This document shows positions 10,761-31,797 of a DNA stretch of 64,000 bases, one piece after another. The stretch lies in IMG/VR virus record IMGVR_UViG_3300020442_000013, positions 1 through 64,000 of that record; one strand, 5' to 3'. The first letter of the stretch is position 1. Each line of letters begins with the position of its first letter. The DNA is from a virus. A program made the position numbers and the translations under genes. Under the pieces are notes generated by a model. It had not been told where the DNA came from and made no database searches. It was given only the letters and a program-made list of their open reading frames with translations.

Positions 10761-10944
10761 GATGAATATCCTCCCATCTGCATCTGACTACATAGATATT
10801 TATGCGACCCCGCTGCTAGGCCACCATTTATCGAAAGGCCCCGCTGCACGGTCTGCGTATATGGAACAGTATTGTGCGTATTTTGTACAAAAGAAAGGCA
10901 CTATGCCTATGATTGAGCAAGTAGAGGTTGACAAACAAGTATAA
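10759..10944 (+). CDS. Uncertain 61-aa reading frame
   Basis: It starts inside the divergent gene's start codon region (ATGATGAATATC) and has no ribosome-binding site. The translation includes YATPLLGHHLSKGPAARSAY, encoded by two copies of the CCCCGCTGC repeat. Its end overlaps the early promoter at 10928, as real genes in this region often do. It may be a remnant. Confidence 0.3.
   Translation: MMNILPSASDYIDIYATPLLGHHLSKGPAARSAYMEQYCAYFVQKKGTMPMIEQVEVDKQV
10797..10804 (-). promoter_or_regulatory. Late promoter box CATAAATA
   Basis: Minus strand, about 37 bases upstream of the ATG at 10760; heads the late operon running down to 6979. Confidence 0.6.
10806..10847. repeat. CCCCGCTGC repeat pair
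   Basis: CGACCCCGCTGCTA at 10805-10818 and GGCCCCGCTGC at 10837-10847. Further copies stand at 23636, 23676 and 26235. Confidence 0.5.
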
Positions 10945-10956
10945 AGGCAGTAATAT
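10928..10956 (+). promoter_or_regulatory. Early promoter, weak -10
   Basis: AGAGGTTGACA, 17 bp, TAATAT. First promoter of the early block; would drive the DUF551 gene. Confidence 0.45.
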
Positions 10957-10994
10957 GTGTACATAACTTAAAATTTGTAAAGAAAGAGAAGAGA

Positions 10995-11225
10995 TTGACT
11001 AGTTGGATAGATGTAAACGAAAGACTACCTAAAGTAGGCGAACCATGTTGGTATTATTTCGAGCCTGTTGGTAGGCATAGAGGCAAGTTCCACGGCTTGT
11101 ATGAAGATGAGAACGGAAAAACTTGGGAAGGTATGCATATATTTGCTACTGACTATGGCTGGTTAACTGGAGATGTCACTCATTGGCATCCTGATCAAGA
11201 GGAGAAACCTAATGTCCCTGAATAG
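10995..11225 (+). CDS. DUF551-like protein
   Basis: 76 residues. MTSWIDVNERLPKVGEPCWYYF at the start and THWHP near the end match DUF551 (WIxVxERLP...HWMP), a small domain of phages and enterobacteria, function unknown. The start is TTG at 10995, chosen because the family begins there; GAAGAG is just upstream. Confidence 0.65.
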   Translation: MTSWIDVNERLPKVGEPCWYYFEPVGRHRGKFHGLYEDENGKTWEGMHIFATDYGWLTGDVTHWHPDQEEKPNVPE

Positions 11226-11574
11226 CTCTAATATATCTAAAACCTCTGAAGCTCGTAACAGCTCTGAAGCTCTACACCCTCTGAAGCTCTGCATTGCTCT
11301 GATTGCTCTGACGGCTCTTAGTGCCTGCGGGTCCTCTTATAGGGTGCCTGATTGGGCGGCCGGCGATCCAAAATGCCGGCAAATTGGTTGTGGCCAAGGT
11401 TTGGTTTTTTATCCAAATGAAAAATTTGGAGCCAAAAGACAAGCCAAAGATTTCTATGGTTGGGAAATGGGAAAAACCTCATCTGCCTATCCTCCTTCTG
11501 ATCCAAAACATTGGGAACTCAAAGCCAAAGAAGCGGCCGCAGGCCAAACTCCATGGCATTGGAACAATCAATAA
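11212..11574 (+). CDS. Lipoprotein with short repeats in its signal region
   Basis: 120 residues. The ATG at 11212 follows AGAGGAG. The signal region IALIALTALSAC ends in a lipobox; the mature part (VPDWAAGDPKCRQIGCGQGL) is Trp/Lys-rich. The DNA for the first 40 codons holds an array of GCTCTGA repeats. Function unknown; probably an envelope lipoprotein. It overlaps the DUF551 gene by 14 bases. Confidence 0.65.
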   Translation: MSLNSSNISKTSEARNSSEALHPLKLCIALIALTALSACGSSYRVPDWAAGDPKCRQIGCGQGLVFYPNEKFGAKRQAKDFYGWEMGKTSSAYPPSDPKHWELKAKEAAAGQTPWHWNNQ

Positions 11575-11641
11575 TTCGAATATAAAACCAAAATAATTTT
11601 TTGTCAACCAAAATATTTTTCCTGTTTTGGCAAAATTCAGG

Positions 11642-11670
11642 TTGACTTCTGAGTCTAATGAGGTTATACT
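11642..11670 (+). promoter_or_regulatory. Early promoter
   Basis: AGGTTGACT, 17 bp, TATACT; preceded by the TTTTGGCAAAA box shared by most early promoters here. Confidence 0.85.
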
Positions 11671-11705
11671 ATTATTATAAAGTTAGAAAACAGAGAGAGG
11701 TAAAC

Positions 11706-12038
11706 ATGGCATTTTATATCTATGAAAAATCATCTACATATATTATAGGCAAGCCTGACCGCAATGGTGTGGCTCGTCCTGATCATAATCAGTCATATAA
11801 AACTATGGCGGCGGCGAAGGCAGGCCTAACAAGAATCGCAAAGGCAGAAGGGCTTTTACCTACTGATCCAAATTATGCAGAAGTTAGATATGCAATCTGC
11901 GAAACAGATAAATTCCACAAAGACATTGAGAAGTCCGTAAAGAAAACTTCTTACATGGATCCAACAAAGAGTTGGATGGAGCCAGTGAACACTCCATATT
12001 ATTGTTCACCATCATCAGAAACTTATTGGAGTATGTAA
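11706..12038 (+). CDS. Early protein, 110 aa
   Basis: AGAGAGG precedes the ATG at 11706. Soluble and basic (MAFYIYEKSSTYIIGKPDRN), with an Ala-rich helix (KTMAAAKAGLTRIAKAEG). No family recognised. It overlaps the next start (TAATG). Confidence 0.6.
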   Translation: MAFYIYEKSSTYIIGKPDRNGVARPDHNQSYKTMAAAKAGLTRIAKAEGLLPTDPNYAEVRYAICETDKFHKDIEKSVKKTSYMDPTKSWMEPVNTPYYCSPSSETYWSM

Positions 12039-12295
12039 TGGGATTAGAAACATTAGCAACGGTTGAGATACGTGAAAGATTTCACAAGTTAGGTCGTCCA
12101 GTGCCTTCCTTTAATTGGGAGTATGGTACGATGTGGATTGATACTGAAGACACAGATGATCTTCGGGTCATCAAAGAAGTCATGGAAGAAGAAGTATTAG
12201 CACCAGGATTAAGGGTGGACTTTAATTTATTAAAAGCCACAGAAACAGAACCATGGGACCAATGGGCCATGGATATAAAAGGAGAGCCAAATTGA
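12038..12295 (+). CDS. Early protein, 85 aa
   Basis: Starts at the TAATG overlap with the gene before. Acidic, with Trp and Asp clusters. No family recognised. Likely translated by coupling. Confidence 0.5.
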   Translation: MGLETLATVEIRERFHKLGRPVPSFNWEYGTMWIDTEDTDDLRVIKEVMEEEVLAPGLRVDFNLLKATETEPWDQWAMDIKGEPN

Positions 12296-12462
12296 GTAGA
12301 GAACAAAGATCAACGGAAGAACAAAAGGCCATAGATGATTGGTTGAAAGCAGGTAATAAAATTACCATTTGTCCAAGAGGACAAACTTCTGATGGAGAAC
12401 TTCCAGGTTATGCTTGGGGTAAGAAGAAGAAAAAACCTGCCAAAAAGAAATTGGCAAAATAA
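12292..12462 (+). CDS. 56-aa Lys-rich early protein, TTG start
   Basis: The TTG at 12292 follows AAAGGAGAG and overlaps the previous stop. The protein ends in a run of lysines (WGKKKKKPAKKKLAK). The stop codon lies inside the conserved promoter box TTGGCAAAATAAAGG. Confidence 0.45.
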   Translation: MSREQRSTEEQKAIDDWLKAGNKITICPRGQTSDGELPGYAWGKKKKKPAKKKLAK

Positions 12463-12465
12463 AGG

Positions 12466-12494
12466 TTGACTTTTATAATTAAAGATCATATACT
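12466..12494 (+). promoter_or_regulatory. Early promoter
   Basis: AGGTTGACT, 17 bp, TATACT; the upstream box overlaps the end of the preceding gene. Confidence 0.85.
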
Positions 12495-12535
12495 ATTTTT
12501 ATAGTTAGAAACAAGGCAACAGAAAGAGGGATAAA

Positions 12536-13385: not shown

Positions 13386-13400
13386 TTTAGGAGGTAGCCT

Positions 13401-13604
13401 ATGATAATGGAACTTTGGATTTTGATAGCCTATGTTTTAGGATCAGCGGCTACCTATTTCCTTATGCGAAAACAAATCGCATTCAACATCACAGAATCAA
13501 TTATTGATCAGTTGATAGCCCAAGGATTTCTCCGTTCTAAAAAAGACAAGAACGGTGAGGTAGAAATTGTCAAATGGTATGCACCAGATGAAATTGGCAA
13601 ATAA
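13401..13604 (+). CDS. 67-aa single-pass membrane protein
   Basis: TTAGGAGG precedes the ATG. One N-terminal membrane helix (LWILIAYVLGSAATYFLM), then a soluble tail. The C-terminal IGK and stop lie in the promoter box. Function unknown. Confidence 0.5.
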   Translation: MIMELWILIAYVLGSAATYFLMRKQIAFNITESIIDQLIAQGFLRSKKDKNGEVEIVKWYAPDEIGK

Positions 13605-13608
13605 GAGG

Positions 13609-13637
13609 TTGACTTTATTGTATTTAGATCATATACT
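13609..13637 (+). promoter_or_regulatory. Early promoter
   Basis: AGAGGTTGACT, 17 bp, TATACT; upstream box GGCAAATAA overlaps the preceding stop codon. Confidence 0.85.
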
Positions 13638-13673
13638 ATAAAGACAATTAAGATAAACCACTAGGAGTAAAGG

Positions 13674-14161: not shown

Positions 14162-14373
14162 TGGGCCCCTATTCAGAGGACAGGCAATTTCAAAGGGCGA
14201 CCGCTATAAAGCGGTTGCTCGAAAACAATCCTGATTTAGATCCACTTTATCAAGCGATGTGGAAAAAACATCTTAACAATTTGGCTTTGAATGAAACCAC
14301 TTATAATTATAGAGTGAAACACGTCTATTCATGTTTGAAGCCGAGACATAAAAATTGGATTTCCTATGAGTGA
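14161..14373 (+). CDS. Early protein, 70 aa
   Basis: Follows GGAGGCATAATG, again a TAATG overlap. Helical, basic. No family recognised. Confidence 0.45.
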   Translation: MGPYSEDRQFQRATAIKRLLENNPDLDPLYQAMWKKHLNNLALNETTYNYRVKHVYSCLKPRHKNWISYE

Positions 14374-14788
14374 AATGCTTAAAGAAGGAGCCAATGTCAC
14401 TATCAAGGTAGAAAATGTAATGTGGCCCTACCGAGATAGATATGCACCAGGTGTCATAAGAGACGAATTCAATTATTACACGGGCAAGGTTGTATATGAG
14501 AAATGGTACAAGGCCAACGAAGTAGGGTTGACTACTGACCAGGATTGGTTTCCTGTCCGTGTAGTTCAAAGGGAAAGAATTGTAGAAGTAAATGACCTTC
14601 CAGTTGATTATTCGGAACCAGAAAGCGATAGAATAGAAGTCAAAGTGACTGGTTCGAAAGGGAACGAATATACGATAGTGAAAGAGCATGGCAAGACCAC
14701 TTGCACCTGTCCGGGATTTCAATTTAGAGGCAGATGCAGACATATTAAAGAATTTGAGCAAAAAGAGTTTGACAAAGTCGATGCTTGA
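14366..14788 (+). CDS. SWIM zinc-finger-like early protein
   Basis: 140 residues. The C-terminus has CTCPGFQFRGRCRH (C113, C115, C124, H126), the CxCx8CxH pattern of SWIM zinc fingers, which bind DNA or proteins. The N-terminal part has an RNA/DNA-binding-like beta start (EGANVTIKVENVMW). It overlaps the previous gene by 8 bases. Confidence 0.65.
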   Translation: MSEMLKEGANVTIKVENVMWPYRDRYAPGVIRDEFNYYTGKVVYEKWYKANEVGLTTDQDWFPVRVVQRERIVEVNDLPVDYSEPESDRIEVKVTGSKGNEYTIVKEHGKTTCTCPGFQFRGRCRHIKEFEQKEFDKVDA

Positions 14789-14819
14789 TGTTATTGTTAA
14801 TAAACTGAAGGAGGCATAA

Positions 14820-14970: not shown

Positions 14971-15249
14971 ATGGATATCCGAGATATTGAACCAGGCAAG
15001 TCTTATGCCTGTAAATTTAAGACAGAACAAGTTTTAGACATCTATGGTCGAATTCCAGGACTTTCTGATACACCTCTAAGAGGTTTGGGTATGTATGAAA
15101 GTTGGGGTCCTATCACGGTTCGTGATATGGCAAGTGAGCACGTTGAGGTTTTAGACCAGAAGAGTAAGAAGAAATTCGTTGTTCCATTTAAGAATATTTG
15201 GGACGTGGATACCGTTATATGGGAGGATAATGAGGATTTGGCAAAATAA
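14971..15249 (+). CDS. Early protein, 92 aa
   Basis: AAGGAGTAGGATA precedes the ATG. Beta-rich start (IRDIEPGKSYACKFKTEQV). No family recognised. Its LAK-stop end lies in the promoter box. Confidence 0.5.
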   Translation: MDIRDIEPGKSYACKFKTEQVLDIYGRIPGLSDTPLRGLGMYESWGPITVRDMASEHVEVLDQKSKKKFVVPFKNIWDVDTVIWEDNEDLAK

Positions 15250-15253
15250 GCCA

Positions 15254-15281
15254 TTGACTTTATTATGTATTCCTGTATAAT
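15254..15281 (+). promoter_or_regulatory. Early promoter, divergent version
   Basis: CCATTGACT, 16 bp, TATAAT; lacks the AGG before TTGAC but keeps the GGCAAAATAA box. Confidence 0.7.
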
Positions 15282-15342
15282 GTTGAAGTTGATTAGGCAA
15301 AACCTAGTTAATATTTTTAATAAATCAGATAAGGATAATAAT

Positions 15343-15588
15343 ATGCCATTTACTACTATTAAAACTAACCAAAAGGCTTTCCTAGAGAACTACCTAAGAG
15401 GTACAGGAAAATCTTTAACAGCCGCTGACGCGAATGCTCGTTTTGGTATTCAAAAATTACCTGCGAGAATGAGTGAATTCAGAAGTGCTGGGTTGAATGT
15501 GAAAGTCACAAAGAGCTCAAAAGGTACTGCAAGATATTCAGTATCTGCTCGTGATGTCACAGGCAGTCGTGCAAAGATGTTTGCCTAA
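15343..15588 (+). CDS. Helix-turn-helix-like DNA-binding protein
   Basis: 81 residues. SLTAADANARFGIQKLPARM followed by SEFRSAGLNVKVT matches the winged-helix layout of small phage HTH proteins (recognition helix then wing). Likely a regulator. The ATG at 15343 follows AAGGATAAT; an in-frame start at 15265 falls inside the promoter. Followed by a strong terminator, so monocistronic. Confidence 0.65.
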   Translation: MPFTTIKTNQKAFLENYLRGTGKSLTAADANARFGIQKLPARMSEFRSAGLNVKVTKSSKGTARYSVSARDVTGSRAKMFA

Positions 15589-15614
15589 GAGCATCATCTA
15601 AACGAATTAAAAGA

Positions 15615-15641
15615 GGCTATGGAGACATAGCCTTTTTTTTT
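15615..15641 (+). terminator. Intrinsic terminator
   Basis: GGCTAT / ATAGCC stem with a 6-base loop and nine T residues; the T run merges into the next promoter's TTTGGCAAAA box. Confidence 0.85.
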
Positions 15642-15654
15642 GGCAAAATTTAGG

Positions 15655-15683
15655 TTGACATTCTCTCTAATAGATCATATACT
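15655..15683 (+). promoter_or_regulatory. Early promoter
   Basis: AGGTTGACA, 17 bp, TATACT. Confidence 0.85.
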
Positions 15684-15708
15684 ATAAGAACAATAAGGGA
15701 GAAGGCTT

Positions 15709-15924
15709 ATGCTATTAAAATTGAAAGGCAAGACCAGACACGGTAAGAATAGGATACACCAACATGGTGATACTTGGGTTATCGAAAGTCATGGTAAGTT
15801 TCAAGGACAGCCTGCATGGTCACTTCGTTCATTGGAAAAGACAGAAGGGCCAAAAGGCAACAAAGGATTCGACGGTCGTTGGGTGTTAAAAGATAACGAC
15901 CCTAATTTTGAAGTGGTATGGTAA
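15709..15924 (+). CDS. Early protein, 71 aa
   Basis: Basic, Trp/Gly-rich (HQHGDTWVIESHGKFQGQPA). GGGAGAAGGC precedes the ATG. No family recognised. Confidence 0.5.
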   Translation: MLLKLKGKTRHGKNRIHQHGDTWVIESHGKFQGQPAWSLRSLEKTEGPKGNKGFDGRWVLKDNDPNFEVVW

Positions 15925-15925
15925 G

Positions 15926-16111
15926 ATGTCTAAAAAATACAGAAAGCCACAGGCACCGAAGGTAAGAAACTTCGTAGCCAAAGAGATGCTAGATCCGGAT
16001 AGTCCTTTTCATGAAAAGACTTTCCGCGATGTTTCAAAAGACGAACAATCGTTTCGCAAGGCGAAACATAAAAAGAAATTTTGGGAGATGCAAGATGATA
16101 GATATAATTGA
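15926..16111 (+). CDS. 61-aa basic early protein
   Basis: ATG at 15926, one base after the previous stop. Lys-rich (MSKKYRKPQAPKVRNF, FRKAKHKKKFWEM). Overlaps the HD-protein gene by 17 bases. Function unknown. Confidence 0.45.
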   Translation: MSKKYRKPQAPKVRNFVAKEMLDPDSPFHEKTFRDVSKDEQSFRKAKHKKKFWEMQDDRYN

Positions 16112-16598
16112 GAAAGCAGAAAAATTTGCCGTTCAGGCACATGGGCCACAGAAAAGGAAGTATTCTGATCAGCCATATATTGTTCACCCATTAGAGGTTG
16201 CAAAGATTGTTCAGAGTGTACCTCATACCAATGCAATGGTTGCCGCGGCTATCTTGCATGATGTAATCGAAGACACTGAGGCTTCTTACGAAGATGTGGC
16301 TGTGAACTTCGGTACTTTGGTAGCAGACTTGGTTGATGAGTTGACTGATGTGTCTAAGCCAGAAGATGGTAATAGGGCAGTAAGGAAGGCCTTAGATAGG
16401 GCTCACTTGGCAAAGGCAAGTGCTGATGCTCAAACTATCAAATTGGCTGACGTCATTAGCAATACCAAAGACATCAAAGAGAACGATCCTAAGTTCGCAA
16501 AGGTTTACATTCCTGAAATGAAAGCCTTGTTAGAAGTTTTAGACAAGGGTGATAAGACTTTGATGGCAGAGGCAGAAAAACAAGTTTTCGGCAAATAA
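16095..16598 (+). CDS. HD-domain protein, (p)ppGpp hydrolase-like (MESH1/SpoT type)
   Basis: 167 residues. YIVHPLEVAKIV (H31), AAILHDVIEDT (H55, D56, E59, D60) and KLADVISN (D119) form the HD site of RelA/SpoT and MESH1 hydrolases, which bind Mn2+ and cut the 3' pyrophosphate of ppGpp. There is no synthetase domain, as in stand-alone small alarmone hydrolases. It may lower the host stringent response; other nucleotide targets are possible. The start at 16095 matches the family; GGGAGATGC is upstream. Confidence 0.8.
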   Translation: MIDIIEKAEKFAVQAHGPQKRKYSDQPYIVHPLEVAKIVQSVPHTNAMVAAAILHDVIEDTEASYEDVAVNFGTLVADLVDELTDVSKPEDGNRAVRKALDRAHLAKASADAQTIKLADVISNTKDIKENDPKFAKVYIPEMKALLEVLDKGDKTLMAEAEKQVFGK

Positions 16599-16602
16599 AA
16601 GG

Positions 16603-16631
16603 TTGACACCTCCTTCGGGAGGTGTTATACT
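16603..16631 (+). promoter_or_regulatory. Early promoter
   Basis: AGGTTGACA, 17 bp, TATACT. The spacer contains ACCTCC/GGAGGT inverted repeat. Confidence 0.85.
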
Positions 16632-16668
16632 ATAAGAACAATAAGAGATTAACTAGAAGAGGGCTTAT

Positions 16669-17031
16669 ATGGAAAAACAATTAGAATTATTCACAAGCGA
16701 ATGGGGTGTAAGAAACGATGTGAAACACCTTGTAGATCCGCTCAATGATTTATTACCGCCAATGGGCATGGTAAAGAATGCGAACAAGAACAAATGGCTT
16801 GAAAAATTTCGTAAGGCACAGAATGTTTCCTATGACATTTTCAATAATGGTCTTTGTAATAGAGGCAAAGAACTTAAGGTGTTAGGCCTTAAAAAATATG
16901 ATTTGCCATTACCAGAATACTATGGTAGAGATAGTTATTTTCCAGGGAACTGGGATAGGATTGAATTTATGGTAAGTGAGGCGATGGCGCCTATCATTCA
17001 AAAAGCGGCAACAGAACAGGGAGTATTATAA
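16669..17031 (+). CDS. Early protein, 120 aa
   Basis: Soluble, with DPLNDLLPPMGMVKNANKNK and a conserved-looking YGRDSYFPGNWDRIEFMV. No family recognised. TAATG overlap with the next gene. Confidence 0.5.
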   Translation: MEKQLELFTSEWGVRNDVKHLVDPLNDLLPPMGMVKNANKNKWLEKFRKAQNVSYDIFNNGLCNRGKELKVLGLKKYDLPLPEYYGRDSYFPGNWDRIEFMVSEAMAPIIQKAATEQGVL

Positions 17032-17954: not shown

Positions 17955-17971
17955 TTTTGGCAAATAAGAGG

Positions 17972-18000
17972 TTGACATTATATCTAGAAGGTGTTATAGT
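17972..18000 (+). promoter_or_regulatory. Early promoter
   Basis: AGAGGTTGACA, 17 bp, TATAGT, with the TTTTGGCAAATAA box. Confidence 0.85.
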
Positions 18001-18038
18001 ATAAACATAATTAGAGCTTACATATAGGAGGGCCGCTC

Positions 18039-18934: not shown

Positions 18935-19011
18935 GGTCCCCTAGCTCAGCTGGATAGAGCATCGGTTTGCGGAACCGAAGGTCAGGAGTTCGAATCTCTT
19001 GGGGACCGCCA
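18935..19011 (+). tRNA. tRNA-Arg (anticodon GCG)
   Basis: 77 bases, full cloverleaf: acceptor GGTCCCC/GGGGACC, D-arm GCTC/GAGC, anticodon stem TCGGT/ACCGA with loop TTGCGGA, T-arm with TTCGAAT and an encoded CCA. Reads CGC (and CGU). Anticodon GCG is rare for bacterial tRNA-Arg, which normally has ACG. Confidence 0.9.
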
Positions 19012-19430: not shown

Positions 19431-19639
19431 TGGCAGACATTTATAGTGTCAGAAGTATGGCTACTAATAAGGTAGTCCAGTCCGGCTTCGATAAGAAGCA
19501 AGATGCCAAGGCAGTTCGAAACGAACTTTGCAAAGAGGCATGGGACAAATGGTCTCAAAAGGCAGAAGAAAAGAGAGGGCCTAAGCCTTTTCCTTTCACT
19601 GTCACTAGAGGCACTGAACATCCTTATTGGTTAAGTTGA
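19430..19639 (+). CDS. Early protein, 69 aa
   Basis: TAATG overlap, GAGGAGG upstream. MADIYSVRSMATNKVVQSGF followed by KKQDAKAVRNELC resembles small phage proteins that modify residue-wise repeats; no family assigned. Confidence 0.5.
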   Translation: MADIYSVRSMATNKVVQSGFDKKQDAKAVRNELCKEAWDKWSQKAEEKRGPKPFPFTVTRGTEHPYWLS

Positions 19640-19641
19640 GG

Positions 19642-19670
19642 TTGACTTTTACCGATAAAGGTGCTATTAT
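19642..19670 (+). promoter_or_regulatory. Early promoter
   Basis: TGAGGTTGACT, 17 bp, TATTAT. It is followed by an unusually long leader. Confidence 0.85.
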
Positions 19671-19677
19671 ATAAAGA

Positions 19678-19836
19678 TAATGCAGAGGGCATTCGCGTCC
19701 TGGGAACGAGATCATAGATCGGCATTCAAAACTGAGGTTTCCGAATTGATGCAGTCCACATTTTACGGGGTGGGAGTTTTCGACTATAAAAATAAAACTC
19801 CCCCAACATAAAAATAATAATAAGCTGGAGGGCAAA
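19678..19836 (+). other. Long structured leader RNA
   Basis: About 160 untranslated bases between the promoter and the ATG at 19837, against about 30-40 for other cassettes. It contains AACGAGATCATAGATC and a stem GGGAGTTTT / AAAACTCCC (about 19770-19805) shortly before the ribosome-binding site GGAGGGC. Could be an attenuator, a riboswitch or a small RNA. No known family recognised. Confidence 0.4.
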
Positions 19837-20439: not shown

Positions 20440-20456
20440 TTTTGGTAAAATAGAGG

Positions 20457-20484
20457 TTGACATTTCCACAAAAGGTTATATTAT
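20457..20484 (+). promoter_or_regulatory. Early promoter
   Basis: AGAGGTTGACA, 16 bp, TATTAT; upstream box TTTTGGTAAAATA. Confidence 0.8.
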
Positions 20485-20508
20485 ATAGATATAACAAAAA
20501 GGAGGAAT

Positions 20509-23425: not shown

Positions 23426-23518
23426 ATGACAGCATTGGAATGGTTCTGTATAGCATTCGTAATCCAGGCAATCCATGTTGCTGTCACTGGTGATGTGGTA
23501 ATGATACCACTTAATTAG
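23426..23518 (+). CDS. 30-aa membrane peptide
   Basis: MTALEWFCIAFVIQAIHVAV, one helix, one base after the previous gene. Weak support beyond layout. Confidence 0.35.
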   Translation: MTALEWFCIAFVIQAIHVAVTGDVVMIPLN

Positions 23519-23521
23519 ACT

Positions 23522-23623
23522 ATGACTTGCTTTTTGATGTGTGATTCCTACTATACTGCCATTGGCTTGTACGGTGTAGGCATCATCCTATTTGCTCTGT
23601 TCGTAATGTGGCTGAGTAGGTAA
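23522..23623 (+). CDS. 33-aa membrane peptide
   Basis: MTCFLMCDSYYTAIGLYGVG then a hydrophobic helix. Three bases after the previous gene. Weak support beyond layout. Confidence 0.35.
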   Translation: MTCFLMCDSYYTAIGLYGVGIILFALFVMWLSR

Positions 23624-23635
23624 GATAGACTAGAT

Positions 23636-23686
23636 GGCCCCGCTGCTGGATCTGAGGTTGAACAGATTGGGTGCAGGCCCCGCTGC
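23636..23686. repeat. CCCCGCTGC repeat pair
   Basis: GGCCCCGCTGC at 23636-23646 and 23676-23686, 40 bp apart; same sequence as the pair at 10806-10847. Confidence 0.5.
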
Positions 23687-23710
23687 GGTCTCCATGGTTC
23701 TAGAGGGGTC

Positions 23711-23718
23711 GATAAATA
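23711..23718 (+). promoter_or_regulatory. Late promoter GATAAATA next to a start codon
   Basis: GATAAATA, five bases, then ATG at 23724. The mRNA should begin at or near the start codon. Confidence 0.5.
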
Positions 23719-23723
23719 TTGAT

Positions 23724-23897
23724 ATGGATAGAAGAGAACAGATAACACAGATGCTGAAGGATCGTATAGCACGGTTCAAGAGGGAGAATGCCCACATATG
23801 GGAGAAACCTAGTAGGCTGTTTAAGGATGAACCCAAAGAGCCTGAGAAGAGGGAACTCACACCCGCAGAGAAAATGAAACGTGATCTAGGGTTCTAA
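23724..23897 (+). CDS. 57-aa basic helical protein, possibly leaderless
   Basis: From the ATG at 23724: MDRREQITQMLKDRIARFKR, then a charged tail ending KMKRDLGF. The frame stays open upstream to an ATG at 23634 through the CCCCGCTGC repeats, but that start has no ribosome-binding site and the late promoter fits 23724 better. Function unknown. Confidence 0.5.
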   Translation: MDRREQITQMLKDRIARFKRENAHIWEKPSRLFKDEPKEPEKRELTPAEKMKRDLGF

Positions 23898-24347
23898 AAG
23901 TATTTGAACTATGCCTCTCGTCACCTCAGACGAACCAAAATTTTCTATAGTTGAAACCGTGGGAAAATGTGAATCTCACCGTGATTTCCATACGAGAGGG
24001 GCCTCTTAACCCTGATCTAAGGGCCCTGTACGGTGCCTTAAAACCCCCCTTATCCTGAACCACCCTGATCGGCCTGAAGGCCTCTATACGCTTCTCTTAC
24101 ACGCTCTAAGAAGGGGTCTGAACGGTCTGAACTCTTTACTATGTTCTTAACACGCTCTTAACGCTCTGAATCAACTCTGTGCCCTAACCTTTTGAAATTG
24201 TTGGATTTTTTGGCCTCGGGAGCTGTCTTTTCGCTCGCCCTCGCCTCTACTATGTATTATCCAATAAAATCAATGTGTTAGCAGTCAAAGTTAATGTAAT
24301 GGATGAGGAGGGGTGTCACTAATATCGTTCTTTCACCTAAGTCATTG
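23898..24347. other. Noncoding region with hairpins and GTCTGAA/CGCTCT repeats
   Basis: No convincing gene on either strand over 450 bases. CCTCTCGT (about 23912) pairs with ACGAGAGG (about 23991) and encloses ACCGTG/CACCGTG motifs. Around 24040-24185 short words recur: CCTGA, GGTCTGAAC, ACACGCTCT. The minus-strand early promoter at 24550 reads into it after a short gene. Could hold an origin or a structured RNA. Confidence 0.45.
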
Positions 24348-24503
24348 TTATTGTTGGCTTTTTCGGGGTCTACCTCGTTCTTTCCGTTCTTCTACGTAAC
24401 CTCTTGATTTTGTTGGATTTTTTTTGGAGACACACAAGTCAGAATTCGGCCAGCCTGTAGCCCTTTGCTTTTTTTCTGCCCCTTGCTGTTTTGCTTTATC
24501 CAT
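24348..24503 (-). CDS. 51-aa basic protein with AT-hook-like motif
   Basis: MDKAKQQGAEKKQRATGWPN and later KERGRPRKSQQ. RGRPRK is the core of AT-hook minor-groove DNA-binding motifs. It is the first frame after a perfect minus-strand early promoter, but no ribosome-binding site is visible. Probably a small DNA-binding early protein. Confidence 0.45.
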   Translation of the reverse strand: MDKAKQQGAEKKQRATGWPNSDLCVSKKNPTKSRGYVEERKERGRPRKSQQ

Positions 24504-24549
24504 TTTTTTGCGGACGGGGTCGCTTAAAGCAGTTTCTTATTATGTTTAT

Positions 24550-24578
24550 ACTATAGCACAAACAACCCACATTGTCAA
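24550..24578 (-). promoter_or_regulatory. Minus-strand early promoter
   Basis: Minus-strand AGAGGTTGACA, 17 bp, TATAGT, followed by ATAAACATAATAAG, the full early consensus. Divergent from the promoter at 24613. Confidence 0.85.
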
Positions 24579-24612
24579 CCTCTTTTTCGCCAAAAAAAAA
24601 ATAAATTAGGGG

Positions 24613-24641
24613 TTGACTTTTGGACAAAATGAGACTACTAT
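24613..24641 (+). promoter_or_regulatory. Early promoter
   Basis: GGGGTTGACT, 17 bp, TACTAT; divergent from the minus promoter at 24550-24578. Confidence 0.75.
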
Positions 24642-24672
24642 GTATATAACAATTAAGCAATAGGAGGGCACA

Positions 24673-24810
24673 TTGCAAAACTTACTAAACAAAATTACAC
24701 TTTGGTTTTTGAACAGAGCATACGAGCAGATGGAGGCTAGTGGCGACTTGCAGAACGCAGACGATGTGGCTGAGCATATAGAAGATTATTTTACTAATTT
24801 TGTAAAATAA
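24673..24810 (+). CDS. 45-aa proline-free early protein, TTG start
   Basis: TTG stands exactly where ATG stands in sister cassettes (GAGGGCACA then TTG). MQNLLNKITLWFLNRAYEQM then an acidic helix. No proline; serine only by AGY. Function unknown. Confidence 0.5.
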   Translation: MQNLLNKITLWFLNRAYEQMEASGDLQNADDVAEHIEDYFTNFVK

Positions 24811-24813
24811 CGG

Positions 24814-24842
24814 TTGACTTTTGAGCAAAATGAGGTTATTAT
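24814..24842 (+). promoter_or_regulatory. Early promoter
   Basis: CGGTTGACT, 17 bp, TATTAT. Confidence 0.85.
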
Positions 24843-24875
24843 AATATTAACAATTAACAATAAATGAGGGCAAAT

Positions 24876-25379
24876 ATGATAAACACAAAAAACTTAACAG
24901 CAGATTTTAACGTAGATTTACACGTAAACGATTGGACAAAAAACATAGTAAACACAATTAGGGTTGTTGAAGACAGAGATGTGTTTACACAAGTTGAAAA
25001 AGATTTTGTGATACAGTTTTTGGTAAACACGCTAGACGGCTTAACACACATTAACATTGAAAGCAGACAAGAAGGTGCAGGCTTTTACAGAATGTGTGAT
25101 GCACAGGAAGTTATGACGCACTTAACAACATTGTATGATAACAACAATGCTAATGAAAGCATAGATGATAGCAAAATAGGCTGGCAGTTTACACTTGCAG
25201 ATGCTGCAGATGCATTGTTAGGCTACGATACAGAATACAGGGATTGTATTACAGAAAATTTTGATGATGCTTGTAATGATGCTTGTGAGGACAAGTTTTG
25301 GCAACAACACGCAGACGCAGATTTTACTACACTTGCTGCAAGAATATTTGCTAAAAACGGTTACAGCTGCTACGAATAA
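24876..25379 (+). CDS. 167-aa proline-free acidic early protein
   Basis: GAGGGCAAAT precedes the ATG at 24876. Asp/Asn-rich, helical (LADAADALLGYDTEYRDC, NFDDACNDACEDKFW), four or more cysteines, no proline. The gene has no TC or CC. Function unknown; strong acidity could fit a DNA mimic. Confidence 0.6.
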   Translation: MINTKNLTADFNVDLHVNDWTKNIVNTIRVVEDRDVFTQVEKDFVIQFLVNTLDGLTHINIESRQEGAGFYRMCDAQEVMTHLTTLYDNNNANESIDDSKIGWQFTLADAADALLGYDTEYRDCITENFDDACNDACEDKFWQQHADADFTTLAARIFAKNGYSCYE

Positions 25380-25395
25380 AACGGTAAAAAAAAGG

Positions 25396-25424
25396 TTGAC
25401 ACTATAGCATTTGTGTGCTATAGT
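25396..25424 (+). promoter_or_regulatory. Early promoter
   Basis: AAGGTTGACA, 17 bp, TATAGT; GCTATAG also occurs in the spacer as an inverted copy (CTATAGC). Confidence 0.85.
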
Positions 25425-25459
25425 GTTACTATAATTACAAAAGCATACGGAGGGCAACT

Positions 25460-25885
25460 ATGCAAAACACACGTTATGAACTACTAAACAAACTACAAGC
25501 TAAACTTGGGGACGCGATTACTATTTACGACGAGTATGAAGGCGAGCACAGACTGAATTTTTATAGTGTAAGCATAAACTTGGGAACAGGTTTTGCTGGG
25601 AACTACAAAGGTGGTTACTGGGGCGATTGTAATATTAAGAATGACGAGCTTAAACTTGCATTTGTATATGGGGACGTATACGATGAAGGTGAAGAGTGTT
25701 TTGGTGAGGGTACGGTACAATTAGAATATGCTGACGGTAGCGGACTTGCATACACAGGCGAGTTAGATAAACTTGTAGAGCGTAAGGTTGAAGAGCTTAC
25801 AGGCGGACTTATAACTTGTAGCGGTAGCGAACAGGGAATGCAGGGAGACGATTACTTGAGTGTAGACGTAGACGAGGCTGCATAA
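25460..25885 (+). CDS. 141-aa proline-free early protein
   Basis: GGAGGGCAACT precedes the ATG. Gly/Tyr/Asp-rich beta-type middle (NLGTGFAGNYKGGYWGDC), acidic tail. No proline, no TC or CC in the gene. No family recognised. Confidence 0.6.
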   Translation: MQNTRYELLNKLQAKLGDAITIYDEYEGEHRLNFYSVSINLGTGFAGNYKGGYWGDCNIKNDELKLAFVYGDVYDEGEECFGEGTVQLEYADGSGLAYTGELDKLVERKVEELTGGLITCSGSEQGMQGDDYLSVDVDEAA

Positions 25886-25890
25886 AACGG

Positions 25891-25919
25891 TTGACATATT
25901 GGATGTTGTGTGCTATATT
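25891..25919 (+). promoter_or_regulatory. Early promoter
   Basis: CGGTTGACA, 17 bp, TATATT. Confidence 0.85.
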
Positions 25920-25949
25920 AAAGCATAATAAAAATTAAGAGGGCAATAC

Positions 25950-26246: not shown

Positions 26247-26282
26247 AGACACAGAATAAATGAGAAATTGGCAAATAAGAGG

Positions 26283-26311
26283 TTGACATTGTAAATAGAC
26301 TATGCTATAGT
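26283..26311 (+). promoter_or_regulatory. Early promoter
   Basis: AGAGGTTGACA, 17 bp, TATAGT, then ATAAACATAATAAGG; full consensus with the TTGGCAAATAA box. Confidence 0.9.
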
Positions 26312-26335
26312 ATAAACATAATAAGGAGATGGCAC

Positions 26336-26887: not shown

Positions 26888-26928
26888 GCATTATAGCACA
26901 TTTTATGCTATAATGCAAGTATTTTTTT
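26888..26928. terminator. Bidirectional terminator
   Basis: Stem GCATTATAGCA / TGCTATAATGC, 7-base loop, then ATTTTTTT. Lies between convergent genes. Confidence 0.8.
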
Positions 26929-27271
26929 AATTACTTAAATAAACGTAATTTTCTAAATTAATATTTTGCATTGCTGTATTTTCTACAACTTTATAAAATA
27001 AGCTGCTTTCATCGTAGTATGTAATGTTGTTAGCAAAAATTTCCATAATACTTTGTAAGCTAACATAATCGTTAGTTTCGTTTTGCACATATAAACATTG
27101 TAGTTGTGCAAAAATGTTAGCACTATTTAAAAAATAACTTGCACAAGTACAATCCATTTCCACAATTTGTAAATTATTGTAGCAATTTTCAATTACTTTG
27201 TACAATGTTTCCATGTGTACACTTTTAGTTTTAGTTGTAGTTGTTTTAGTTATTGTTTTTAATTGTTGCAT
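26927..27271 (-). CDS. 114-aa proline-free early protein on the minus strand
   Basis: MQQLKTITKTTTTKTKSVHM, then Asn/Tyr/Leu-rich helices with three cysteines near the middle. No proline. The start at 27271 fits the promoter at 27311-27339 and an AAGGCAG leader; a longer frame from 27322 would begin before the transcript. No family recognised. Confidence 0.55.
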   Translation of the reverse strand: MQQLKTITKTTTTKTKSVHMETLYKVIENCYNNLQIVEMDCTCASYFLNSANIFAQLQCLYVQNETNDYVSLQSIMEIFANNITYYDESSLFYKVVENTAMQNINLENYVYLSN

Positions 27272-27310
27272 ATAATACTGCCTTTTTTTAGTTAATGTTT
27301 TATTGTGTTT

Positions 27311-27339
27311 AATGTAGCACATAATTTTCCAAAATGCAA
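27311..27339 (-). promoter_or_regulatory. Minus-strand early promoter, variant
   Basis: Minus-strand CGGTTGCAT, 17 bp, TACATT in the context GTGCTACATTAAACACAATAA. Divergent from the promoter at 27385. Confidence 0.7.
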
Positions 27340-27384
27340 CCGTTTTTTTCCAAAATATTAAATTAAAAAATGGTAAAAAAAAGG

Positions 27385-27413
27385 TTGACAGTAGCAGAAA
27401 ATTGTGCTATTGT
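27385..27413 (+). promoter_or_regulatory. Early promoter
   Basis: AAGGTTGACA, 17 bp, TATTGT. Confidence 0.8.
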
Positions 27414-27446
27414 TAACTATAAAATAAAAAAGCGAAAGGGCAAAAG

Positions 27447-27647
27447 ATGGGAATGAGCAGTTATATTTTAGATTTAGAAGAGCAGTTTGACACAAAGGTG
27501 GTTGAAGCTATTAAAGAGAGCGAGCACGTGAGTGAGGCTATTGCTGGGGCTATGAAGCACAGAGACTTGGTTGCTAATTGGACAGACGACGAGATTGAAG
27601 ACTATGTGCATGACGGCTGGAACGAGGTTTGGAGAGATTATTTATAA
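27447..27647 (+). CDS. 66-aa proline-free acidic early protein
   Basis: AAAGGGCAAAAG precedes the ATG. Acidic, helical, ends in WTDDEIEDYVHDGWNEVWRD. No proline. No family recognised. Confidence 0.55.
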   Translation: MGMSSYILDLEEQFDTKVVEAIKESEHVSEAIAGAMKHRDLVANWTDDEIEDYVHDGWNEVWRDYL

Positions 27648-27663
27648 TTTGGTAAAAAAAAGG

Positions 27664-27692
27664 TTGACAATTGAATTTGTTTGTGCTATAGT
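27664..27692 (+). promoter_or_regulatory. Early promoter
   Basis: AAGGTTGACA, 17 bp, TATAGT, then ATAAGCACAATAAG. Confidence 0.9.
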
Positions 27693-27720
27693 ATAAGCAC
27701 AATAAGAGAACGAGGGCAAA

Positions 27721-27903
27721 ATGCAAATCATCAGATCAAAGAAATCATTGGCTACCCTAAACAACCGGAGGTTCTTCACCCCACCTACCTTGGCAGAGAT
27801 ATGCGAGAACCCAGAGTGGAAGCCGATCACCCTGCCAGACGAGCTAGACGAGCAATTTAACTTTTTTGACATTTTGGATAAAAAAAGGTTGACATCCGAA
27901 TAA
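27721..27903 (+). CDS. 60-aa early protein with a promoter in its 3' end
   Basis: GAGGGCAAA precedes the ATG. Contains prolines (FFTPPTLAEICENPEWKPIT), so unlike the neighbour to the left. The last five codons contain the -35 of the next promoter. No family recognised. Confidence 0.5.
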   Translation: MQIIRSKKSLATLNNRRFFTPPTLAEICENPEWKPITLPDELDEQFNFFDILDKKRLTSE

Positions 27904-27917
27904 CGGTGTGCTATAGT
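27889..27917 (+). promoter_or_regulatory. Early promoter inside a gene end
   Basis: AAGGTTGACA, 17 bp, TATAGT, then ATAAACATAATAAG. Confidence 0.9.
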
Positions 27918-27945
27918 ATAAACATAATAAGAAAGCGAGGGCAAG

Positions 27946-28167: not shown

Positions 28168-28346
28168 GAGCACTCTGCATAGGATTGGCATTCTTCTGCG
28201 CCTTTGTAGGCGTAGGGGTGCTTGAGGATTGTGGCGGCGACTGTATTCCAGAAGACTACAATGCGGCCTGGAGATGGGTGGTCGCGATAGTGGCTGTGAT
28301 GGGTACGGCGTTCTTCGGCTTTGCCGGGGCTGTGATAAAAAGGTAA
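28164..28346 (+). CDS. 60-aa two-pass membrane protein
   Basis: ATG at 28164 by ATGA overlap. Helices at about 3-20 and 38-57 with CGGDC between them. Function unknown. Confidence 0.5.
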   Translation: MRALCIGLAFFCAFVGVGVLEDCGGDCIPEDYNAAWRWVVAIVAVMGTAFFGFAGAVIKR

Positions 28347-28354
28347 AAAAGAGG

Positions 28355-28383
28355 TTGACAAACGGTTTGAGAGACTGTATTAT
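28355..28383 (+). promoter_or_regulatory. Early promoter
   Basis: AGAGGTTGACA, 17 bp, TATTAT. Confidence 0.85.
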
Positions 28384-28413
28384 ATAGGTAACAATTTAGA
28401 AAGAGAGGGCCAA

Positions 28414-28878
28414 ATGGGAACAAGATCAACGATAGCAATGAAGAAGCCAGAAGGTGGCGTGGTTGCGATATACTGTCACTGGGATGGATACCCTGCCCAC
28501 AATGGGGTGATCCTGAATAAGCATTGGACAGACACAGACAAGATAGCTCAACTGATTGGGCTAGGAGACTTGTCAAGCCTAGGTACAGAGCTAGGCGAGA
28601 AGCAGGACTTTGACAATAGGGAGACCCAATCGGATGGTTGGTGCTTGGCCTATGGCAGAGACCGTGGTGAGACGGATGTAGAAGCCCGTCACTATCCAGA
28701 CGTTGAGTCCTGGATTAAGTCTAAGGCAGAGAGCTGGTGCGAATGGGCGTACCTGTGGGATGGAGAAAATTGGCTAGTCCACCAAATCAAGGACGAGAGC
28801 ACGGAGTATCCTGTGTTCGACTTTGCTGATGTTGTATTATTGCAACACCAAAAAGAAATCGCAGAAATGGCAAAATAA
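28414..28878 (+). CDS. Conserved phage/plasmid protein (MGTRSTI type)
   Basis: 154 residues. MGTRSTIAMKKPEGGVVAIY then CHWDGYPAHNGVIL is a pattern common in phage and plasmid proteins; function unknown. GAGGGCCAA precedes the ATG. The MAK-stop end lies in the next promoter's box. Confidence 0.7.
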   Translation: MGTRSTIAMKKPEGGVVAIYCHWDGYPAHNGVILNKHWTDTDKIAQLIGLGDLSSLGTELGEKQDFDNRETQSDGWCLAYGRDRGETDVEARHYPDVESWIKSKAESWCEWAYLWDGENWLVHQIKDESTEYPVFDFADVVLLQHQKEIAEMAK

Positions 28879-28881
28879 TGG

Positions 28882-28910
28882 TTGACATTCGAGTCAACCG
28901 ATGCTATTAT
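28882..28910 (+). promoter_or_regulatory. Early promoter
   Basis: TGGTTGACA, 17 bp, TATTAT; box ATGGCAAAATAA. Confidence 0.85.
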
Positions 28911-28960
28911 GTGTATAGTTAAGTTAAACAAACCAATCAGCCTAAGGAGGGCTAAACGAT

Positions 28961-29381: not shown

Positions 29382-29468
29382 GCCGCCATGGTGGAATTGG
29401 TAGACACAACAGACTTAAAATCTGTCGGCCCTCGAGCTGTCCCGGTTCGAGTCCGGGTGGCGGCACCA
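29382..29468 (+). tRNA. tRNA-Leu (anticodon UAA)
   Basis: 87 bases with the long variable arm of class II tRNAs. Acceptor GCCGCCA/TGGCGGC, anticodon stem ACAGA/TCTGT with loop CTTAAAA, T-loop TTCGAGT, encoded CCA. Confidence 0.95.
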
Positions 29469-29472
29469 CTCA

Positions 29473-29549
29473 CTGCCCTTAGCTCAGCTGGACAGAGCAA
29501 CGGCCTTCTAAGCCGTGGGTCCCGGGTTCGAATCCTGGAGGGCAGGCCA
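29473..29549 (+). tRNA. tRNA-Arg (anticodon UCU)
   Basis: 77 bases, acceptor CTGCCCT/AGGGCAG, anticodon stem ACGGC/GCCGT with loop CTTCTAA, T-loop TTCGAAT, encoded CCA. Four bases after tRNA-Leu. Reads AGA/AGG, frequent in this AT-rich genome. Confidence 0.95.
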
Positions 29550-29560
29550 ATGCAAAAAAA

Positions 29561-29620: not shown

Positions 29621-29621
29621 C

Positions 29622-29649
29622 TTGTGTTCCCTAGGGTAGATGCTATTAT
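29622..29649 (+). promoter_or_regulatory. Early promoter with degenerate -35
   Basis: TGCTATTATATAAACATGATAA fits the early -10 region; the -35 is only TTGTGT at 16 bp. Confidence 0.5.
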
Positions 29650-29679
29650 ATAAACATGATAAACAACACAGGAGACGAT

Positions 29680-29844: not shown

Positions 29845-29906
29845 TAGAGCTCGTGTTCATCAGTCAGGCCATCATGCTGGTGGCCTTAATCATCTTATCT
29901 CCATAA
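29841..29906 (+). CDS. 21-aa hydrophobic peptide, GTG start
   Basis: GTGA overlap with the previous stop, GAGGAGG upstream. MIELVFISQAIMLVALIILS is one membrane helix. Confidence 0.35.
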   Translation: MIELVFISQAIMLVALIILSP

Positions 29907-29921
29907 TTGGCAAAAAAGAGG

Positions 29922-29950
29922 TTGACATCGACCGTAGGTTGTGCTACATT
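29922..29950 (+). promoter_or_regulatory. Early promoter
   Basis: AGAGGTTGACA, 17 bp, TACATT, with TTGGCAAAAAAGAGG upstream. No gene follows it directly. Confidence 0.75.
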
Positions 29951-30042
29951 ATAATTGAGGACCGGGGTGCTGGAACGGGAGGGCACGGAGCTCTGACTTT
30001 TTTAAGCCCAAAAAAAAAGATGACTTTTTGGCAAAATAAAGG
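29951..30042 (+). other. Empty cassette
   Basis: About 90 bases between two early promoters. The leader word GGGAGGGCA is present, but no ATG follows and no frame stays open. Probably a decayed cassette or a short RNA. Confidence 0.5.
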
Positions 30043-30071
30043 TTGACCTTTAGATAAACTGGTGCTATAGT
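30043..30071 (+). promoter_or_regulatory. Early promoter
   Basis: AAGGTTGACC, 17 bp, TATAGT, then ATAAACATAATAAGG. Confidence 0.85.
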
Positions 30072-30104
30072 ATAAACATAATAAGGAAACAGAAAGAGGG
30101 CAAA

Positions 30105-30455
30105 ATGACAAAATTCGCAATCCACACACAGGTTTTAGAGAACTATGGCGCACACGCAGAGGACGGCAAGTTTGCTTCCGGCAATGCGTATTGGAAGTTC
30201 AAGCCGGGTACCACTTACATTGTATCCGACTGTGAGCGGTTGCAGGATGCCGTTGCCTTTGTGATGGCGGCGTTTTCCGAGAACAGTATTGGCTGGAAAG
30301 AGTATCCATGCCATTACGAGACTGAGGGGGAGTGGTTAGCTGGCATGGCTGGCGACGACGAGGAGTACCAGCAGTTTCAGCAGGAGACTGCGATGAGGGT
30401 AAGTCCCAATTATGGGAAGAGTACCGTGAGGTACAAAGAGAAGGAGGCAGCGTGA
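30105..30455 (+). CDS. Conserved phage protein, 116 aa
   Basis: GAGGGCAAA precedes the ATG. MTKFAIHTQVLENYGAHAED, with WKFKPGTTYIV after it, is a start I recall from phage proteins of unknown function. Soluble, acidic tail. Confidence 0.6.
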   Translation: MTKFAIHTQVLENYGAHAEDGKFASGNAYWKFKPGTTYIVSDCERLQDAVAFVMAAFSENSIGWKEYPCHYETEGEWLAGMAGDDEEYQQFQQETAMRVSPNYGKSTVRYKEKEAA

Positions 30456-30535
30456 AGGGATTGATCATAGGGATCACTCTCGCGGTGGCGATGTATTGGA
30501 TATTGAGTATGTTCGCCACTTCGGTAGGATTATAA
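30452..30535 (+). CDS. 27-aa membrane peptide, GTG start
   Basis: GTGA overlap with the previous stop, AAGGAGG upstream. MKGLIIGITLAVAMYWILSM is one helix. Confidence 0.35.
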   Translation: MKGLIIGITLAVAMYWILSMFATSVGL

Positions 30536-30546
30536 TAAATTAGGGG

Positions 30547-30575
30547 TTGACATTGAGATCAACTGAGGCTATACT
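30547..30575 (+). promoter_or_regulatory. Early promoter
   Basis: GGGGTTGACA, 17 bp, TATACT. Confidence 0.85.
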
Positions 30576-30623
30576 ATAAAGACAATAAGGCATTAATTAA
30601 CACTTCAAATGAAAGAGGGCAAT

Positions 30624-31628
30624 ATGGAAAAGATTAGAATACTCGAAGGCACGTACAAGATCAGAGGGAACGACGTGGACCTCGCAGGCATGGTGTTCCC
30701 ACTAGTGGATCACTTCAAGGTAGGCGCCAAGGGCGGCTACGTTACGGTCGATGGTGCGGCTGTAGCTGGGTTCCCACAGAGGAACATCAAGATCGCTTGT
30801 GCTGGCGCTGACTCATATGAGGACGCAGGTTCAGCAAAGACAACCAAGCGAGAGGAGACGGACGAAGAGACGATCGAACGTTTACGTGAGCGATTCGAAA
30901 TGCTCGAGGACATGACCCGAGCAACCAAGAAGGGCGATGTGCGAGCAATGATCGTAAGTGGCCCTCCAGGAGTTGGCAAGAGCTTTGGTGTAGAGAAGGT
31001 GCTTGGCAAGCATGACTTGATCGCTACACTGGGTGACAAGCCTCCCAAGTATCAGGTTGTCAAGGGTGCTATGTCAGCAATAGGCCTCTACTGTAAATTG
31101 TACAACTATGCCGACAAGGACAATGTGTTGGTCTTTGATGACTGTGATTCGGTCTTCAGTGACGAACTCAGCCTTAACATATTGAAGGCGGCTCTTGATA
31201 GTAAGAAGAGCAGAACTATCCATTGGAACACAGATTCGTTCAAGTTGAGAAACGAAGGTGTGCCGGACAGTTTCGAATTCAAGGGTGGTGCGATATTCAT
31301 CACCAACATCAAGTTCGATAACGTTAAGTCGAAGAAGATGAGAGATCACCTAGAAGCTTTAGAGTCCAGGTGTCACTACATTGACTTGACTATCGATACT
31401 GATAGAGAGAAGATGCTGCGTATCAAGCAGATCACCAAAGACGGTATGCTTGATGAGTATCAATTGGGCAACGACGTGGTTGATGAGATCGTAGAGTTCT
31501 GCGAATCCAACAAGGCACGTCTAAGAGAATTGAGTTTGAGAACCGTGCTCAAGGTTGCTGACTTAGCTAAGGCATTCCCGGACAAGTGGGAAGCAATGGC
31601 TGAGAACACAGTGATGAAGCATGCATAG
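30624..31628 (+). CDS. AAA-type ATPase
   Basis: 334 residues. Walker A GPPGVGKS (113-120), Walker B VLVFDDCD, sensor-like IFITN (AIFITNIKFD) and an arginine-rich C-terminal helical region. No target domain is recognisable; phage AAA proteins of this size often remodel DNA or protein complexes. GAGGGCAAT puts the start at 30624; an in-frame start at 30609 is unlikely. Single gene between a promoter and a terminator. Confidence 0.8.
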   Translation: MEKIRILEGTYKIRGNDVDLAGMVFPLVDHFKVGAKGGYVTVDGAAVAGFPQRNIKIACAGADSYEDAGSAKTTKREETDEETIERLRERFEMLEDMTRATKKGDVRAMIVSGPPGVGKSFGVEKVLGKHDLIATLGDKPPKYQVVKGAMSAIGLYCKLYNYADKDNVLVFDDCDSVFSDELSLNILKAALDSKKSRTIHWNTDSFKLRNEGVPDSFEFKGGAIFITNIKFDNVKSKKMRDHLEALESRCHYIDLTIDTDREKMLRIKQITKDGMLDEYQLGNDVVDEIVEFCESNKARLRELSLRTVLKVADLAKAFPDKWEAMAENTVMKHA

Positions 31629-31690
31629 TTCGAACCGAATGTGCTAGAGCCCAAGACTACGTGATTGCCCTCCGTAGCTGGCTCGCACAA

Positions 31691-31738
31691 GGTAGGGCGG
31701 AGCAGATGCCCTTAAGACTCCGCCCTACCATCCTTTTT
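31691..31738 (+). terminator. Strong intrinsic terminator
   Basis: 12-bp stem GGTAGGGCGGAG / CTCCGCCCTACC, then TCCTTTTTA. Confidence 0.85.
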
Positions 31739-31768
31739 ATCCCCGCATAGATATTGGTAAAATAAAGG

Positions 31769-31797
31769 TTGACCTTTAGGATTTTTGACTGTATACT
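31769..31797 (+). promoter_or_regulatory. Early promoter, last of the plus array
   Basis: AAGGTTGACC, 17 bp, TATACT; box TTGGTAAAATAAAGG. Confidence 0.85.

Follow-up and report, generated by a model that had tools for sequence, protein, structure and literature searches.

Why should a phage keep about 25 near-identical promoters in one block of its genome, and what keeps them alike? The question is raised by bases 1-64,000 (the window) of the 101,244-bp IMG/VR virus record IMGVR_UViG_3300020442_000013, for which such an array of early-type promoters had been claimed from inspection of the sequence. With at most one mismatch allowed, the window contains 59 occurrences of the motif AGGTTGACW where 30.6 ± 6 would be expected, mostly on the plus strand and between 10.7 and 31.8 kb. 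A positional matrix built from the window, comprising the upstream block, the −35, the spacer ends, the −10 and the downstream positions, detected 27 sites (24 plus, 3 minus), 26 of them inside 10.9-31.8 kb, and none in shuffled sequence. A second matrix, trained on 203 sites of other contigs, was scanned over the full record and over order-2 shuffles; this test is nearly, not fully, independent because its training sites had originally been located by means of the window-derived matrix. It gave 29 sites in 10.9-31.9 kb (26 plus, 3 minus) and 8 weaker ones elsewhere in the record, with 0-1 per shuffled genome. The array is therefore confirmed, its weakest or most doubtful plus-strand members being 10928, 14769 and 15254 (sites are named by the position of their −35).

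Each site is a predicted sigma70-type promoter with the consensus TTGGCAAAATAAAGG TTGACA N17 (3′ end GGTGC) TATAGT ATAAACATAATAAG, where ATAAACATAATAAG spans −6 to +8 and is weaker. The block from −57 to −38 totals 12.5 bits and holds an A-tract at the proximal UP-element position, −45 to −38, with A at −44/−43 in almost every copy. GG TTGAC is almost invariant, the GG at −48/−47 amounts to 2.8 bits, and a TGn typical of an extended −10 (T at −15 in 19 of 27 sites, G at −14 in 18) is accompanied by TA...T in 27/27. The AGGTTGAC(A/T) of the original prediction is exact in 16 plus-strand sites, the others having GGG, TGG or CGG ahead of TTGAC, or TTGACC. Its spacing of 16-18 bp, mostly 17, is narrower in fact, since nearly all sites have 17 and only 20457 and 15254 have 16; likeness for some 20 bases past the −10 is present but weaker, with 6.2 bits over −6 to +8 versus 13.7 over the GG and −35. 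The consensus is followed by a GAGGGCA-type leader and, about 60-70 bp past the −35, by a start codon, most sites lying some 60-70 bp 5′ of a gene start. The upstream stop codon is placed 2-5 bases 5′ of the −35 in 9 sites and about 16-18 in others, so that upstream genes often terminate in the element's own codons (KLAK, EIGK or DLAK before the stop). For the majority of products of these small, fast-evolving array genes, neither Pfam nor PHROG gives a function.

Arrays of small genes headed by promoters of this type are present in 10 or more further marine contigs, several with 7-20 sites, and the sequence signature recurs in many uncultured ocean phages. A strict pattern was matched by 35 stretches in IMG/VR viral contigs and by just 4 among 84,980 genomes of bacteria and archaea, where each lies on a short contig of a marine metagenome-assembled genome; these four, labelled Flavobacteriales, Porticoccaceae and Euryarchaeota, were rejected as a guide to the host, being short contigs that are probably misbinned phage. 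Orthologs of array genes in the marine contigs are about 40-80% identical, and their order is shuffled while the strand is that of the array. Orthologs of promoter-headed window genes are themselves promoter-headed in 58 of 76 cases versus 19 of 60 for internal genes (Fisher p 3e-7, an optimistic value because genes recur across contigs and the cases are not independent). The promoters stay with their genes despite the shuffled gene order.

We propose that a marine T4-like phage very probably has in this array its set of immediate-early promoters, which a sigma70-type polymerase of the host would read. The element of about 60 bp would be an over-specified promoter for the housekeeping enzyme, made of (i) a UP-type A-tract at −45 to −38; (ii) GG and TTGACA; (iii) a 17-bp spacer, TGn and TATAGT or TATACT, and (iv) a discriminator and an initial transcribed region that are both A/T-rich, with A at +1. 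After injection, unmodified host polymerase would fire all promoters simultaneously, producing early transcripts that are short, overlap and each cover 1-4 small genes, with read-through expected because few intrinsic terminators lie between cassettes. Selection at the polymerase contact positions would keep the copies alike, and the promoter would form the stable front of a cassette, genes being gained, lost and reordered yet keeping or acquiring a promoter about 60-70 bp 5′ of their start. Since a minority of sites have spacer inverted repeats like those that RB49 and KVP40 carry in their promoter/stem-loop (PeSL) cassettes, promoter homology may also serve cassette shuffling. The same record carries T4-like replication genes, a sheath and a terminase; the terminase is 54.7% identical to its counterpart in the PA5oct group of Pseudomonas phages. 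Four points weigh against this proposal: activity, timing and strength are deduced from sequence; recognition by host sigma70 is assumed; conservation of the −48/−47 GG and of −6 to +8 somewhat exceeds minimal sigma70 contacts; and PA5oct, the closest cultured relative checked, has just scattered, weaker sites, no dense array of this consensus being found in it.

Chance sigma70-like sequences in A/T-rich DNA would be expected at a similar density in shuffles, and with 29 array sites against 0-1 expected, and 37 real sites in the record against 0-1, their probability is practically negligible. The original prediction had also offered recent copying. In this genome, that would mean that a mobile element or a promoter cassette had lately been duplicated. 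Pairwise identity was computed by block among 24 copies (chance level in brackets): 0.89 (0.28) for GG and −35, 0.76 (0.42) for the −10, 0.53 (0.34) for the UP block, 0.49 (0.39) for −6 to +8 and 0.47 (0.29) for the spacer end, versus 0.30 (0.28) for the 9-nt spacer interior, 0.26 (0.26) for the far-upstream flank and 0.31 (0.31) beyond +9. Recent copies would share spacer and flanks, but the flanks 5′ of −58, the spacer interior and the DNA past +9 are all at chance identity and only the contact positions reach 0.5-0.9; likeness limited to polymerase-contactable positions speaks for selection on recognition. A few spacer pairs are unusually similar (20974/17972, at 14/17), as copying would have it, yet orthologous cassettes with such promoters are present in phages with just some 50-75% protein identity, which makes recent copying very unlikely. 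A different origin of the likeness would be a phage-encoded or virion-injected factor, or a modified polymerase, that reads the extra positions and makes the array a dedicated regulon. The GG at −48/−47 and the 6.2 bits over −6 to +8 would suit such a factor, and there is a precedent in T4 Alt, which stimulates certain early promoters (PMC2988021). The extra conserved positions claimed for a regulator reading more than sigma70 do exist; a need for it does not follow, because the extra consensus of T4 is read by host polymerase, as is that of other T4-likes. Moreover, −6 to +8 is A/T-rich and much of its identity is therefore composition, and a profile search of the full record, which may be incomplete, found no AsiA or MotA domain. 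We consider such a factor improbable, and slightly more so its broader form, in which a phage-delivered factor would read the −48/−47 GG and the initial transcribed region and govern a private immediate-early regulon across the marine T4-like group.

Gene exchange offers another function for the promoters. PeSL elements are strong sigma70 promoters joined to stem-loop terminators among swappable ORFans of a hyperplastic region, where cassette recombination generates indels and shuffling. If the array were of this kind, its promoters would be chiefly shared homology and stem-loop terminators for gene swaps between phages, a possibility that we hold only tentatively. Stems of at least 7 bp occur in 24 of 248 unique sites across relatives versus 3.4 expected, the spacer-swap control being weaker (10 versus 5.4), but in the window clear ones are found in just 3 of 28 sites: 16603 and 25396 (spacer/−10) and 28882 (−35/spacer). 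In the RB49 control, 10 TTGAC-type promoters had stems of this length. The spacers of strong RB49 early promoters often contain GGGGATC-N3-GATCCCC, whereas in KVP40 it is AAAGGGTTGAC..GTCAACCCTTT that runs across the −35 of the copies; both designs are present in the window, in single copies. A hairpin spacer as universal trait was rejected, since only a minority of sites have one despite the enrichment, and so was a terminator ahead of every promoter, for which there are one clear case, directly 5′ of 15655, and one further weak candidate. The clear terminator was missed by simple scans, whose plus-strand stem rule absorbs the T-run. Since most sites lack stems, the PeSL label fits just partly. 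Of the ends of homology blocks, 43% lie no more than 80 bp from a promoter, versus 19% for displaced positions, and two contigs that are 93% identical (G001 and G015) differ by one gene of about 257 bp, an ortholog of window 10995-11225, inserted precisely at the junction of an upstream stop codon and a promoter; this promoter has the hairpin AAAGTCAAC..GTTGACTTT, whose 3′ arm contains the −35 and which is followed by a T-rich stretch. However, gene boundaries without promoters are also broken often (24/39 versus 51/61) in these much diverged contigs, and the adjacency test gave p = 0.11; promoter-driven recombination is hence suggested, not demonstrated.

Table 1. Predicted promoters and terminator of the window; scores are in bits, from the mostly independent 203-site matrix.
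Feature	Span	Strand	−35 at	Score
Weak member near start of array, TTGACA-17-TAATAT	10911..10970	+	10928	26.1
Weak divergent promoter-like site, TTGACA-17-TATATT	11565..11624	−	11607	16.0
Early promoter	11625..11684	+	11642	35.8
Early promoter; upstream gene terminates KLAK-stop within element	12449..12508	+	12466	45.6
Early promoter; upstream gene terminates EIGK-stop within element	13592..13651	+	13609	53.2
Weaker member, overlaps 3′ end of gene 14366-14788	14752..14811	+	14769	24.6
Poor match, TTGACT-16-TATAAT, 5′ of gene 15344-15588	15237..15296	+	15254	8.6
Terminator, hairpin and T-run immediately 5′ of promoter 15655; read from sequence	15610..15646	+		
Early promoter	15638..15697	+	15655	47.4
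Early promoter; spacer is hairpin ACACCTCC-TTCG-GGAGGTGT, RB49-type architecture	16586..16645	+	16603	50.3
Early promoter	17955..18014	+	17972	56.1
Early promoter	19625..19684	+	19642	36.0
Early promoter, 16-bp spacer	20440..20498	+	20457	42.8
Early promoter, TTGCAA	20957..21016	+	20974	30.0
Strong minus-strand copy, directed into ORF-free 1.1-kb region	24536..24595	−	24578	51.2
Early promoter, divergent with 24578	24596..24655	+	24613	31.9
Early promoter	24797..24856	+	24814	31.3
Early promoter; 11-bp inverted repeat ACACTATAGCA..TGCTATAGTGT from spacer and −10	25379..25438	+	25396	40.3
Early promoter	25874..25933	+	25891	18.8
Early promoter	26266..26325	+	26283	56.2
Minus-strand copy, TTGCAT, heads gene 26927-27322 (−)	27297..27356	−	27339	22.7
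Early promoter	27368..27427	+	27385	31.3
Early promoter	27647..27706	+	27664	53.9
Early promoter	27872..27931	+	27889	51.2
Early promoter	28338..28397	+	28355	34.6
Early promoter; inverted repeat GGTTGAC-N6-GTCAACC, KVP40-type	28865..28924	+	28882	33.0
Early promoter	29905..29964	+	29922	29.3
Early promoter closest to consensus	30026..30085	+	30043	57.2
Early promoter heading gene 30609-31628 (phrog_1250)	30530..30589	+	30547	52.0
Early promoter	31752..31811	+	31769	42.2
Weaker same-type promoter directly 5′ of DnaB-like helicase region	40268..40327	−	40310	21.6
Weaker same-type promoter 5′ of primase 42300-43280	43273..43332	−	43315	22.8
Weaker promoter 5′ of 52854-54080, gene ahead of uvsW 51395-52852	54058..54117	−	54100	15.2
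Weaker promoter 5′ of gp32-like 62891-63889	63934..63993	−	63976	17.3

The sites that had been claimed near gp32, primase and uvsW exist, on the minus strand, but score 15-23 versus mostly 25-57 in the array (Table 1). The divergent back-to-back pairs 11607/11642, 24578/24613 and 27339/27385, with −35 starts about 35-46 bp apart, form long imperfect inverted repeats. Within the early array lie tRNA-Arg(gcg), tRNA-Leu(taa) and tRNA-Arg(tct), at 18935-19011 and 29382-29549; beyond short matches at tRNA genes, no close DNA relatives were found among sequenced phages. The nearest cultured homolog of array gene 30609-31628 is in the PA5oct group, and that of PA5oct has a TTGAC-17-TATACT site 67 bp 5′ of its start. 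Gene 16095-16598 (+), with an HD domain (HD_4, E 3e-17), is among the few checked array genes with a recognisable domain. Outside the array, the DNA polymerase open reading frame (ORF) 36457-38106 (−) matches just positions 362-826 of a 1190-position family profile, and the polymerase may therefore be split or shortened. An anion-transporter-like permease at 49214-50506 (−) shares 54% identity with a sequence derived from Acinetobacter and is widespread in marine viral contigs at 79-97%; its PHROG label is tail protein, apparently a misannotation.

The ORF-poor region of about 1.1 kb at 23430-24550 (minus), headed by the strong copy 24578, contains iteron-like repeats TAACCTCTTGATTTTGTTGGATTTTTT at 24185, 24338 and 24397. 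Three related contigs (G029 about 15000-16970, G011 1-1133 and G014 1-449) have the same layout and share a few short blocks with it. An Rfam search for structured RNAs matched tRNAs only. The region is a candidate replication origin or noncoding RNA. The noncoding 11-mer GRCCCCGCTGY has 5 copies (10806, 10837, 23636, 23676 and 26234, all plus) versus 0.02 expected, and copies are invariably on the array strand. It occurs in a similar layout in G029 (5 copies), G006, G028, G021 and others; zero copies were found in 1.14 Mb of permease-neighbourhood contigs. A T4-late-type TAAATA or TATTTA lies within 60 bp of 16 of 30 copies versus 2.2 expected for random positions.

Among uncultured marine phages, a large group shares the consensus, which could be used as a tag for immediate-early genes; those so tagged nearly all encode small proteins without known function. 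In archaeal viruses, anti-defence genes have been found through shared early regulatory sequences (PMC11065993); a search of this type could likewise work in the marine phage arrays. The arrays are also a dataset for asking if promoters are gene-swapping joints beyond RB49 and KVP40.

The early promoters of T4, which host polymerase reads, have been described as 'uber' UP/−35/TGn/−10 promoters carrying extra consensus (PMC2988021). The array shares with them the UP-type A-tract, conserved base(s) beside the −35 (here the G next to TTGAC), the TGn −10 at 17 bp, and a location 5′ of ORFans and other small early genes. It differs in having GGTTGACA/T where T4 has GTTTACA/T, in the additional GG at −48/−47, and in the grouping of its sites in one block of about 21 kb, those of T4 being scattered over the genome. 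In the five T4-likes RB49, RB69, RB43, 44RR and Aeh1, early promoters precede novel ORFs (PMC1524935); there, as here, each phage has its own variant of one consensus, many sites stand before ORFans and tRNAs, and RB49, RB43 and Aeh1 have the G at −33 of the array, whereas the array phage belongs to another, marine group, its nearest cultured terminase being PA5oct-like at 54.7%. With the PeSL cassettes of RB49 and KVP40 (Arbiol 2010 and Comeau 2014, as cited in PMC4503421) it has in common strong sigma70-like promoters in a hyperplastic ORFan region and, at 16603, 25396 and 28882, the placement of the stem, but most array copies are without stem-loop or terminator. The kind is thus ordinary, a T4-type early-promoter strategy, of which this well-defined member with its own sequence signature is new.

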